Shown one piece after another: positions 59,288-63,611 of a stretch of 64,000 bases of DNA (its first letter is position 1; each line of letters opens with the position of its first letter). The DNA is taken from positions 62,001 to 126,000 of the forward strand of contig NZ_FNIR01000004.1 of NCBI RefSeq assembly GCF_900103975.1, in the 5' to 3' direction. The stretch is from Klenkia soli. Its GTDB lineage: Bacteria > Actinomycetota > Actinomycetes > Mycobacteriales > Geodermatophilaceae. Below the pieces are notes generated by a model. That model made no database searches. It saw only the letters and a program-made list of their open reading frames with translations, and was not told the DNA's origin. The position numbers and the translations under genes were made by a program.

Positions 59288-59431
59288 GTGACCAGTGCAG
59301 CGCTACCGACGAGGGCCCGCCCGGCCGTGGTCCCCTCGGCGACCCGTCGTCCGCCCGGCCGCGCGGTGCCCGCGCGACTAGGATCGTCCGACGTGGTGTC
59401 CCGTCTGCGGGCGCCGCAGAGAGGACGGTCG
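59288..59431 (+). other. N-terminal extension encoding a longer SigR isoform
   Basis: The sigR frame is open upstream to GTG 59288, which lies 8 nt after the SigR-like promoter. Using it adds 48 residues ((M)[16 protein letters not shown]...). A TAGGAT -10 (59379-59384) inside this stretch would instead drive the short form, either leaderless from GTG 59393 or from the Shine-Dalgarno-equipped GTG 59432. S. coelicolor SigR is made as short and extended isoforms in the same way. Confidence 0.5.
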
Positions 59432-60133
59432 GTGCCCGACGACAGCACGGAAGACACCACGGACGACACCGGGTCGACCACCCCCGCGGCGGTCGAGACC
59501 CCCGAGGCCCGGGCCGACGGCAGCCGCAGCGAGCAGACCGAGACCCGCGCCCAGCGCGACGCCCGCTTCGAGCGCGACGCCCTGCCCTTCCTGGACCAGC
59601 TGTACCCGGCGGCGCTGCGGATGACCCGCAACCCGGCCGACGCCGAGGACCTCGTGCAGGAGACGTTCGTCAAGGCCTACTCCGCGTTCCACCAGTTCGC
59701 CGAGGGCACGAACCTCAAGGCCTGGCTGTACCGGATCCTGACCAACACCTACATCAACAACTACCGCAAGAAGCAGCGGCAGCCGCAGCAGTACCCCACC
59801 GACCAGGTGCAGGACTGGCAGCTGTTCGCCGCCGAGGAGCACAGCTCCAGCGGTCTGCGGTCGGCCGAGATGGAGGCGCTGGACCACCTCCCCGACACCG
59901 ACATCAAGGACGCCCTGCAGCAGCTGCCCGAGGACTTCCGGCTCGCGGTCTACCTGGCCGACGTCGAGGGCTTCGCCTACAAGGAGATCGCCGAGATCAT
60001 GGGCACGCCCATCGGCACGGTGATGTCCCGGCTGCACCGCGGGCGGCGCGGGCTGCAGAAGCTGCTGGCCGGCTACGCCCGGGAGCGCGGGTTCGCCCGG
60101 GCGGGTGCCTTCGAGGAGGGATCGGCATCGTGA
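59432..60133 (+). CDS. sigR: SigR/SigH-type ECF RNA polymerase sigma factor
   Basis: The core 233-residue ECF sigma factor has region 2 ([46 protein letters not shown]). Region 4 carries [16 protein letters not shown] and [26 protein letters not shown]. It directs the thiol-oxidative-stress regulon from GGAAT/GTT promoters. The GTG at 59432 has GAGG seven bases upstream; longer isoforms start at 59393 or 59288. It is coupled to the anti-sigma gene by GTGA. Confidence 0.95.
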
Positions 60134-60453
60134 GCGACACGAACACCGGCGACACCCAGATCAACAGCTGCGACGACGTGCTCAGCCACGTCTTCGAGTT
60201 CCTCGACCACGAGACCGGCGACGAGCGTCGTGCCGTCATCGCCGAGCACCTCGAGGACTGCTCCCCGTGCCTGCGGGAGTTCGGCATCGAGCAGGAGTTC
60301 AAGGCCCTGGTGCGCAAGCGCTGCGGTGGCGACCCCACGCCGATGGGGCTCAAGGACCGGATCAAGCTCCAGCTGACCCAGGTCGCCTTCGAGGAGAACG
60401 GCACCACGGTCACCGTCGAGCAGGTCACGGTGGAGCGCACCGCCGAACGCTGA
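60130..60453 (+). CDS. rsrA: Zinc anti-sigma factor RsrA/RshA
   Basis: The 107-residue ZAS-family anti-sigma factor has the zinc site HLEDCSPC (HxxxCxxC) and an upstream Cys in [10 protein letters not shown]. In RsrA, oxidation of the Cys pair ejects zinc and releases SigR. GTG start in a GTGA overlap with sigR ensures matched synthesis. A perfect 16-bp terminator hairpin follows. Confidence 0.95.
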
Positions 60454-60479: not shown

Positions 60480-60514
60480 GGAGGGCCCGGACGACGACGT
60501 CGTCCGGGCCCTCC
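60480..60514. terminator. sigR-rsrA terminator hairpin
   Basis: Perfect 16-bp arms (60480-60495 and 60499-60514, GGAGGGCCCGGACGAC and complement) around GAC, between rsrA and the convergent bL37 gene. It can serve both directions. Confidence 0.8.
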
Positions 60515-60528
60515 TGCGCTCGCCTGGT

Positions 60529-60603
60529 TCAGGCGTTGGGGCGCTTGCCGTGGTTGGCGCCGCTCTTCTTGCGGGCGCGCCGCTTGCGTCCACGCTTGGA
60601 CAT
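60529..60603 (-). CDS. Ribosomal protein bL37
   Basis: This 24-residue, very basic peptide (MSKRGRKRRARKK..., ending ANHGKRPNA) matches bL37, the short actinobacterial 50S protein found in mycobacterial ribosome structures. ATG at 60603 has AGGAGGG six bases upstream. It is short enough to be missed by most gene finders. Convergent with rsrA, with a shared terminator. Confidence 0.9.
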   Translation of the reverse strand: MSKRGRKRRARKKSGANHGKRPNA

Positions 60604-60789: not shown

Positions 60790-61821
60790 GTGGCGGACAC
60801 CGGCGGGACGGGCATCGGGAGCGTCCTGGTGGCGGGGCGCGGGCCCATGGCGTGCGCGGTGATCCGGGCCGCCGAGGTGCTCGGGGTGAAGACGGTCGCC
60901 GTGCACTCGGCCAGCGAGCGCGACGCCCGGCACGTACGGCTGGCCGACGACTCGGTGTGGCTCGGCCCGGCGCCGGCCGCGGAGTCCTACCTGTCGGTGC
61001 CCCGCCTGGTCGAGGCCGCCCGGCGCAGCGGGGTCGACGCGGTCCTGCCGGTGCCCCCGGCGCTGGCCGGGAACGCCGAGCTGGCCGCGGCGGTCGTGGC
61101 GGCCGGGCTGACCTGGGTCGGACCGGCGGCCGGGGTGCTGGAGCGGCTGGGCGGCGACGGCGTCGAGCCGGCCAGCGCGCAGGGTTTCCTCGCCGTCGTC
61201 ACCCCCGACGGACTCCGGCACGTGACCCCGGTCCGGCGGGACCGGGACGCCGGCACCGCGCGGGTCTCCTGGACACCGGCCGGGTGGCCGGCGGGTGGGG
61301 GGCTCGAGCTGCCCCGGGCCGCCCGCCGGCTCGCCGAGGTCGGCTGGCGGGGGCTGGTCACCGTGGGCATCGACCCCGACGGCGAGCTCGCCGAGGTGGC
61401 CGCCGGGTTCTCCCTGGACCTCGCCGTCCTCGAGCGGGCGCACGCGGTCGACGCCGTCGACCTCGCGCTGCGCTGCGCCTCCGGCCGGCTGCGTCCCGAC
61501 CGGCGCACCCCGCCCCGCCCGGCGGTGGTCGCCCAGCTGCGCGCCACGCTGCCGCCCGGCACACCGGGGCGGGTCACCGGCCGGCTGCCCGACCTCGTGG
61601 GCCCGGTCGACGCCGAGGTCGTGGCGGTCGGCGGCTACGCACCCGGCGACCGGCTGGACGGCTGGTACGACGCGCTCCTCGCCACGGTGAGCGCCAGCGG
61701 ACCGGACACCGCCGCGGCGGCCGGCCGGGTGGTCGACGTCCTCTCCGGGCTGCCCGCCACCGGGGTGCCGCACGACGGCGACGCGGTGCGCGAGGTGCTG
61801 CGCCAGCTCGCCGCAGCCTGA
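60790..61821 (+). CDS. Degenerate biotin-carboxylase-like protein
   Basis: The 343-residue protein starts like the biotin-carboxylase N-domain (VLVAGRGPMACAVIRAAEVLG, VAVHSASERDARHVRLADD, GPAPAAESYLSVPRLVEAA, GLTWVGPAAGVLERLGGD). It ends with remnants of the C-domain (RRLAEVGWRGLVTVGID, GYAPGDRLDGWYDALLATV). Most of the ATP-grasp B-domain, including the Gly-rich loop, is missing, and the EMNxRxQVEH catalytic segment is replaced by EVAAGFSLDLAVLERAHAV. It is therefore probably inactive. GTG at 60790. It lies 74 bp before an orphan biotin carrier gene. Confidence 0.75.
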   Translation: MADTGGTGIGSVLVAGRGPMACAVIRAAEVLGVKTVAVHSASERDARHVRLADDSVWLGPAPAAESYLSVPRLVEAARRSGVDAVLPVPPALAGNAELAAAVVAAGLTWVGPAAGVLERLGGDGVEPASAQGFLAVVTPDGLRHVTPVRRDRDAGTARVSWTPAGWPAGGGLELPRAARRLAEVGWRGLVTVGIDPDGELAEVAAGFSLDLAVLERAHAVDAVDLALRCASGRLRPDRRTPPRPAVVAQLRATLPPGTPGRVTGRLPDLVGPVDAEVVAVGGYAPGDRLDGWYDALLATVSASGPDTAAAAGRVVDVLSGLPATGVPHDGDAVREVLRQLAAA

Positions 61822-61895
61822 TCCGGCGCCCGTCGCGGGGTGGTTGGATGGTCCCGACACACCCGAGACACCCACGAGCACGAGGAGGTCCGCCG

Positions 61896-62117
61896 GTGGC
61901 GGTCGAGGAGATCCACGCCGAGATGGTCTCCAGCGTGTGGAAGGTGCTGGTCGCCCCCGGCGCCGAGGTGGCCGCCGGCGACACGCTGGTCATCCTCGAG
62001 TCCATGAAGATGGAGATCCCGGTGCTGACCGAGCGGGCGGGCACCGTCACCGAGCTGCACGTGGTCGAGGGCGAGGTCCTCCAGGAGGGCGACCTCATCG
62101 CGACCGTCACCGCCTAG
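61896..62117 (+). CDS. Small biotin/lipoyl attachment domain protein (TB7.3-like)
   Basis: The 73-residue protein is a lone biotinyl domain with ILESMKMEIPV (biotinylated Lys in MKM), VAPGAEVAAGD and the closing EGDLIATVTA. GTG start with GAGGAGGT six bases upstream. M. tuberculosis TB7.3 (Rv3221c) is a similar orphan near sigH. No transcarboxylase lies nearby except the degenerate biotin carboxylase. It is followed 6 bp later by the PdtaS-like kinase, which suggests one transcript. Confidence 0.92.
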   Translation: MAVEEIHAEMVSSVWKVLVAPGAEVAAGDTLVILESMKMEIPVLTERAGTVTELHVVEGEVLQEGDLIATVTA

Positions 62118-62123
62118 TCGCAG

Positions 62124-63611
62124 GTGACCCAGCGCAGCAGCCTGTCCGAGCGGCTCTCCCGTGCGCCCGCGGTCAGCCCGTCGCAGGCCGACCACGCCCG
62201 CCGCCTGGTCGCCGACTGGCAGCTGCTGGCCGACCTGTCCTTCGCCGACCTGACGCTGTGGGTGCCGCTGCCGGGCGGTGCCTGGTGGTGCGTCGCGCAG
62301 GTGCGCCCGCTGACCGCGTCGACCACCCAGCCCGAGGACCTCGTGGGTGTCGAGGTGGCCGCCGCCGAGGCGGGCTCCTTCGTGCAGGTGCACCAGGAGG
62401 GCGAGCCGGTCGTCGAGGAACCCGACGGCACCGGGTCGGCCCCTCGGCGCCGCGAGGTGCTGCCGGTGCGGCACGAGGGCGCCGTCGTCGCGGTGCTCGC
62501 GCGGGACACCCGCATCTCGGCGACCCGCCCGCCGTCGGAGCTCGAGCTCACCTACCTCGACATCGCCGCGGAGCTCGGCCAGATGGTCTCGGCGGGCACC
62601 TTCCCGCCGCGCATGCTCGAGGACGCCGAGATGAGTCCCCGGGTCGGCGACGGCCTGGTGCGCCTGGACGGCGACGGGCGGGCGGTCTACGCCAGCCCCA
62701 ACGCGCTGTCGGCCTACCGCCGGATGGGGTTGTCCGGCGACGTCGTCGGCGCCGACCTCGCCGAGCTGACCCGTCGCTCGGCGACCGACCGGGTCGTCGG
62801 CGAGGTCGTCGCGGCGCACATCGCGGCCGCGGTCGCCGGGCGGTACCCCGACCCGCTGGACGTCGAGGGCGACGGAGCCACGATGCTGGTCCGCGCCCTG
62901 CCGCTGCAGGCACCCGGCGGTGAGCACGGCGCCCTGGTGCTGGTGCGCGACGTGACCGACGTGCGCCGGCGCGACCGGGCGCTGATGACCAAGGACGCCA
63001 CCATCCGCGAGATCCACCACCGGGTGAAGAACAACCTGCAGACGGTGGCCGCGCTGCTGCGGCTGCAGGCCCGGCGGGTGGCCGAGCCCGCGGCCCGGGA
63101 CGCCCTGCTGGAGGCGGTGCGCCGGGTGGCGTCGATCGCGGTCGTGCACGACACGCTGGCCGGCAGCCGGGAGGACGTCGTCGACGTGGACGAGGTGCTC
63201 GACCAGGTGCTGCCGATGCTGGGCGACGTCGCCTCGGTGGGGCCCGCGGCGAGGATCGGCCGCACGGGCCGGTTCGGCGAGCTGCCGGCGGTGAACGCCA
63301 CCCCGCTGGTGCTGGCGGTCACCGAGCTGATGCACAACGCCGTCGAGCACGCGTTCGTCGGGGCCGCCGCCGGCCGCATCGAGCTCGTCGCCGAGCGGGA
63401 CGGCCACGACCTCGTGGTGCGCATCGCCGACGACGGACGGGGGCTGCCCCCCGGCTTCGACGTCACGGCCAGCAAGGGCCTGGGTCTGCAGATCGTGCGC
63501 ACCCTGGTCACCAGCGAGCTGCACGGCCGGCTGGAGATCACCGCGCCGGCCGAGGGTCCGGGTACGGTCGCCGTCCTCACCCTGCCGGGGGCCGGCCGCT
63601 CCCGCCGCTGA
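62124..63611 (+). CDS. pdtaS: PdtaS-type sensor histidine kinase
   Basis: This 495-residue soluble kinase has a GAF-like domain (about 30-160), a PAS domain (about 170-280, MSPRVGDGLVRLDGDGRAVY), HisKA_2 with the phospho-His in IREIHHRVKNNLQT, and an HATPase (ELMHNAVEHAF, IADDGRGLPPGF, GLGLQIVRTLV). There are no transmembrane segments. In mycobacteria PdtaS phosphorylates PdtaR, an ANTAR regulator. PdtaR itself is not in the window, but another ANTAR protein lies at 28.9 kb. GTG start 6 bp after the biotin-carrier gene. Confidence 0.92.
   Translation: MTQRSSLSERLSRAPAVSPSQADHARRLVADWQLLADLSFADLTLWVPLPGGAWWCVAQVRPLTASTTQPEDLVGVEVAAAEAGSFVQVHQEGEPVVEEPDGTGSAPRRREVLPVRHEGAVVAVLARDTRISATRPPSELELTYLDIAAELGQMVSAGTFPPRMLEDAEMSPRVGDGLVRLDGDGRAVYASPNALSAYRRMGLSGDVVGADLAELTRRSATDRVVGEVVAAHIAAAVAGRYPDPLDVEGDGATMLVRALPLQAPGGEHGALVLVRDVTDVRRRDRALMTKDATIREIHHRVKNNLQTVAALLRLQARRVAEPAARDALLEAVRRVASIAVVHDTLAGSREDVVDVDEVLDQVLPMLGDVASVGPAARIGRTGRFGELPAVNATPLVLAVTELMHNAVEHAFVGAAAGRIELVAERDGHDLVVRIADDGRGLPPGFDVTASKGLGLQIVRTLVTSELHGRLEITAPAEGPGTVAVLTLPGAGRSRR

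Follow-up and report, generated by a model that had tools for sequence, protein, structure and literature searches.

The locus considered here raises the question of what a biotin carboxylase (BC), the enzyme that attaches carbon dioxide to biotin, may still do for a biotinyl carrier when the part that performs the chemistry has been lost. The locus lies in a stretch of 64,000 nucleotides of Klenkia soli (hereafter, the window), which belongs to contig C11 (377 kb) of a genome of 4.76 Mb. It comprises a pseudo-biotin carboxylase (pBC) and the carrier that follows it. On sequence comparison and structure prediction, the view that pBC is catalytically dead is strongly supported. The reading preferred here, to which a probability of about one half is given, is that pBC is a pseudoenzyme, descended in situ from the BC of a former BC–carrier pair, and that it binds the biotinylated carrier without turnover. 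The two genes are as follows.

60790..61821, + strand: pBC, 343 amino acids (aa), GTG start to TGA stop; N-domain of BC with a predicted C-domain body, ATP lid missing from the model.
61896..62117, + strand: orphan single-domain biotinyl carrier, 73 aa, GTG start to TAG stop; motif ESMKMEI with Lys38, and 35 residues beyond it.

Both genes are on the + strand and are separated by a gap of 74 bp. An earlier note, made from the sequence alone, had given the pair the same coordinates and lengths.

Domain composition and active site

The protein pBC matched the family Biotin_carb_N (PF00289) with 94.8 bits (Pfam cut-off 25.5), its score for Biotin_carb_C (PF02785) was 20.4 bits, below the cut-off of 32.4, and no Pfam match to the ATP-grasp family PF02786 was obtained at E values up to 10. 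An N-domain with scraps of a C-domain is what the earlier note had described. In comparison with AccC of Escherichia coli, the Gly-rich loop was missing and, of the 16 catalytic or ATP-binding positions compared, 15 were deleted or replaced, the roles of the compared residues being those that we recall from the BC literature. This comparison included 21 pseudo rows, 11 of the main type and 10 others, with the incomplete row G008 left out. The single position retained, E288, was kept in all 11 main-type rows, and the Glu aligned with it (E202) was shared by every one of 49 main-type sequences; the other 10 rows kept between 0 and 2 of the 16 positions. A profile–profile comparison of 49 pBCs (39 after filtering) versus eight catalytic BCs, which is the kind of alignment proposed in advance as a refutation test, reached a probability of 99.9% over 325 columns and still did not restore the catalytic segment, so that the loss of the EMNxRxQVEH segment reported in the earlier note was upheld.

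Among 93 positions invariant in the eight catalytic BCs, the main type keeps 36, deletes 15 and replaces 42. Five of the seven residues of the HPGYGFL loop are replaced, as are N290, R292, Q294, V295 and E296. New conserved residues occupy the old active site, namely GGDGxEPxS, RDR, and V, P, P and A at four positions within the HPGYGFL loop. The borders of the deletion are approximate, since MAFFT, hhalign and a pairwise alignment via the form of family f12 (see below) disagree on where the middle residues of the main-type pBC belong; the middle region is also unsure in the alignment of the forms of groups g8 and g10. Two further residues, R16 and R366, which we take to be contacts of the BC homodimer, are mostly lost in the main type, where 10 of 11 rows have a replacement at R16 and 10 of 11 at R366; among the other 10 pseudo rows, 9 retain R16, 2 retain R366 and 8 have R366 replaced. 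Titles of PDB entries name the BC mutants R16E, E23R and F363A and say nothing of dimer contacts.

The predicted model of pBC retained the overall BC fold, matching to the C-terminal end, with the ATP lid missing, and the best AlphaFold2 model was confident; structure prediction, a check suggested in the earlier note, agrees with its view of a dead enzyme. In summary of its likeness to AccC and to the N-terminal part of AccA, pBC shares with them the N-domain, a predicted C-domain body, the predicted overall fold and the place directly before a biotinyl carrier, but differs in the absence of the lid and the Gly-rich loop, in the catalytic positions lost by the main type and in the loss of R16 and R366 in most main-type rows. 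We know of no BC mechanism that would allow pBC to charge biotin.

Conservation and distribution

Of the relatives with a name, Klenkia terrae (89%) and Klenkia marina (87%) are the nearest. Among 60 genomes of relatives, 36 carry the family code f1, read as Geodermatophilaceae, a family of soil-dwelling actinobacteria, and pBC was present in all 36. In 28 of them it is of the main type, with 70–100% identity (split over two contigs in G007); four belong to group g5, with 41–43% identity, and four are short forms of 284–322 aa in groups g8 and g10, recognised by reading the locus. One match of group g5 was reported with an internal TGA, although the locus itself has an unbroken frame of 352 aa. 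Median within-genus ratios of nonsynonymous to synonymous substitution (dN/dS) ranged from 0.145 to 0.339 in the main lineage (five genera, 20 sequences), and from 0.02 to 0.32 for the middle segment. By these ratios and frames, the main-lineage pBC is under purifying selection, conserved rather than decaying.

In the order sample, 118 of 397 genomes gave a match at E ≤ 2e-25, 75 of which are the listed f1 rows; 259 genomes without a match stand outside the listing and may include f1 members. The match in G752 is a fragment, the contig stopping 30 bases further. Orthologs outside the family were sought in a class sample, in which 27 of 393 genomes matched at E ≤ 1e-26, only two of them f1; the other 25 matches, mainly to the N-domain and in frames of at least 462 aa, are read as probable ordinary BCs and not as orthologs.

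The carrier and its pairing with pBC

The carrier matched NCBIfam PRK05889 (NF004547) with 112 bits (cut-off 75), in agreement with the lone biotinyl domain noted earlier. Other BCs are encoded in the genome, as is a biotin ligase, so that the carrier could, judging from its motif and the gene content, be biotinylated in the cell and perhaps charged elsewhere.

The survey of the locus covered 78 loci, all titled as Geodermatophilaceae genera or as the family except L123, titled 'Bacillus' (unverified), and L170, a 'Frankiales' metagenome-assembled genome; a single metagenome-assembled genome contributes two contigs, L144 and L180. In 75 loci the carrier match begins 59–182 bp downstream of the point where the pBC match stops, which answers the question of co-occurrence in related genomes posed in the earlier note. 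Two of the three exceptions (L144 and L176) end before the carrier, and L125 has none. The distance from the carrier to PdtaS ranges from 12 to 1664 bp (67 loci). This adjacency, together with the live BC–carrier pairs that occupy this slot in other families, supports pBC and the carrier as a fixed pair. At positions 1600–2380 of L125 (Geodermatophilus sp. TF02-6), between pBC and PdtaS, a GNAT-like open reading frame (ORF), assigned by eye, was observed on the - strand, with no carrier.

The same slot in other families

In two f9 genomes the carrier is preceded by a complete BC, 447 aa long in one and 460 aa in the other, which keeps 16 of 16 positions. In an f7 genome (L070, 4998–6662, - strand) a complete BC and a biotinyl carrier share one open frame of 554 aa, with 15 of 16 positions kept and Tyr at 236; an internal ATG might be a separate start. 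Two f12 genomes hold pBCs of 393 and 319 aa, differently eroded. A close PRK05889-type carrier occurs in 99 of 150 sampled genomes of the order, and 29 further non-f1 carrier loci (28 genomes) were chosen from the list of close-carrier genomes. Sixteen of these show SigR, RsrA and carrier without a BC, two, from a single f3 genome, carry immediately upstream of the carrier a BC that includes the catalytic segment, one has a BC ending at a distance of about 2.5 kb, and ten show neither within the stretch read. One of the two sets in that f3 genome is ordered carboxyltransferase–BC–carrier; its BC (L099, 620–1963, - strand) has an odd Gly-rich loop, GRGPRGTKI, lacks K116 and keeps EMNTRLQVEHP. 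In two f3 genomes (L077, 4521–5525; L079, 6066–7070, - strand) an LLM-oxidoreductase-like ORF, assigned by eye, lies between RsrA and the carrier.

All 21 pseudo rows fell on one branch beside the f9 and f7 BCs in the trees, with supports of 94/89 (N plus C columns) and 72/77 (N alone), too weak to prove one origin. Remnants of the ATP-grasp core differ among the pseudo lineages, and the likeliest course would be that the ATP lid was lost first, followed by separate erosion in each lineage.

Genomic context

The neighbouring features of the window are the following.

59288..60133, + strand: SigR/SigH-type sigma factor, upstream (TIGR02947, 354.8 bits).
60130..60453, + strand: RsrA-type mycothiol-system anti-sigma factor, upstream (TIGR03988, 86.7 bits).
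60480..60514: strong hairpin separating rsrA from the genes that follow, probably a terminator.
60529..60603, - strand: basic ORF of 24 aa, divergent from pBC, which we take to be bL37-like.
62124..63611, + strand: PdtaS-type histidine kinase, starting 6 bp past the carrier.

The placement of the pair between SigR–RsrA and PdtaS and the lack of a carboxyltransferase nearby, both stated in the earlier note, were confirmed: none of the five carboxyltransferase (PF01039) matches in the genome is on contig C11. None of the nine PF02786 matches in the genome is on that contig either. The hairpin has 16 pairs, and a 65-nt piece containing it folds at -44.3 kcal/mol (z -5.1, lower than 200 of 200 shuffles). 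A terminator scan listed only 60550–60563, the hairpin not being among its sites, and a promoter scan found no promoter. The SigR-type pattern GGGAAY-N16-20-GTT matched three times in the window, against 0.64 expected; every match lies at 39–45 kb and none near the pair. To judge from the hairpin and the small divergent ORF, pBC may be transcribed separately from sigR–rsrA.

Related carriers elsewhere also sit between rsrA-like and pdtaS-like genes, and presumably TB7.3 of Mycobacterium tuberculosis has a neighbourhood of this type; unlike the window, most of the non-f1 loci examined lack a BC-like gene at this place. In the parts of the literature consulted, TB7.3 is called a putative biotin carboxyl carrier protein (PMC3048393) and is listed among biotinylated proteins (PMC11126594). 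A literature search over titles and abstract openings returned no BC pseudoenzyme of the pBC kind.

Proposed role and alternatives

Under the preferred reading, pBC would have arisen from the BC of an earlier BC–carrier pair in the sigR–rsrA/pdtaS region. Being presumably unable to charge biotin, it would leave the carrier, if carboxylated at all, to be charged by another carboxylase of the cell. The retained, carrier-facing BC body would bind the biotinylated carrier without turnover, and this binding may store, position or gate it; since the part performing the chemistry has been lost, pBC probably handles or regulates the carrier and does not load it. A non-catalytic carrier partner is favoured by the constant proximity of the two genes, by the BC body that has been kept and by the existence of live relatives, and the putative carrier-holding role is plausible. 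A more specific form of the idea, offered tentatively and open to considerable doubt, is that throughout the family the lidless BC body docks the free carrier and gates the access of carboxylases to it, as a standing non-catalytic subunit mirroring plant BADC. In the part of the source available, BADC is a non-catalytic paralog of a subunit of a biotin-dependent carboxylase, the carrier, with a role in assembly or regulation, and was earlier proposed as an inhibitor (PMC11926652). In BADC the carrier is dead, whereas at this locus it is the BC that is dead, the carrier retaining its biotinylation motif.

Several observations weigh against a carrier-bound role. Geodermatophilus sp. TF02-6 has an open pBC with the carrier missing at the locus, and a search of its whole genome for a carrier gave only weak matches, up to 41 bits. 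Relative to SigR, the carrier evolves no more slowly beside pBC: the carrier/SigR ratio is 2.65 (f1), 2.69 (g5) and 3.42 (g8) with pBC, and 1.04–2.75 in six families without a BC here (two of them on one pair each). The carrier also persists without any BC in many families, and two of five AlphaFold2 models of pBC were poor (mean pLDDT 69.7 and 65.5). The TF02-6 genome, the new conserved residues at the old active site and the low dN/dS of the middle segment would all suit a function independent of the carrier, in which the BC body is reused for another ligand or partner and the adjacency is a legacy of the earlier pair of genes. This is a possible, though less probable, explanation, as the carrier stays within 59–182 bp of pBC in 75 of 78 loci while the distance to PdtaS varies.

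Regulation of a live carboxylase, with pBC pairing with a functional BC subunit to lower or assemble its activity as a mirror image of BADC, is unlikely; the predicted BC fold, the precedent of BADC (PMC11926652, seen in part) and the R16 retained by most other pseudo rows speak for it, but the loss of R16 and R366 from most main-type rows lowers the likelihood of the usual dimer with a live BC in the main lineage, and R366 is mostly replaced in the other rows too. The suggestion of the earlier note that the dead carboxylase could serve redox or CO2 sensing, taken here as tied to SigR–RsrA or PdtaS, found no support and is very improbable: pBC lies amid these genes both in the window and in the relatives sampled, but the hairpin follows rsrA, the exact SigR-type pattern was not found nearby and the PdtaS distance is variable. 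Least probable is a functionless, decaying relic. Different pieces are eroded in each lineage and the g8 and g10 forms are short, as a relic would have it; for the main lineage this reading is disfavoured by the open frames, dN/dS well under 1 and the confident best model.

Significance

Many genomes of the order have an orphan carrier of the PRK05889 type, and beside one of them survives a dead BC derived from a live BC–carrier pair, while related families hold live, eroded and absent states of the BC. Both the role of a lone carrier and the turn of a catalytic subunit into a non-catalytic partner are in this way directly testable.
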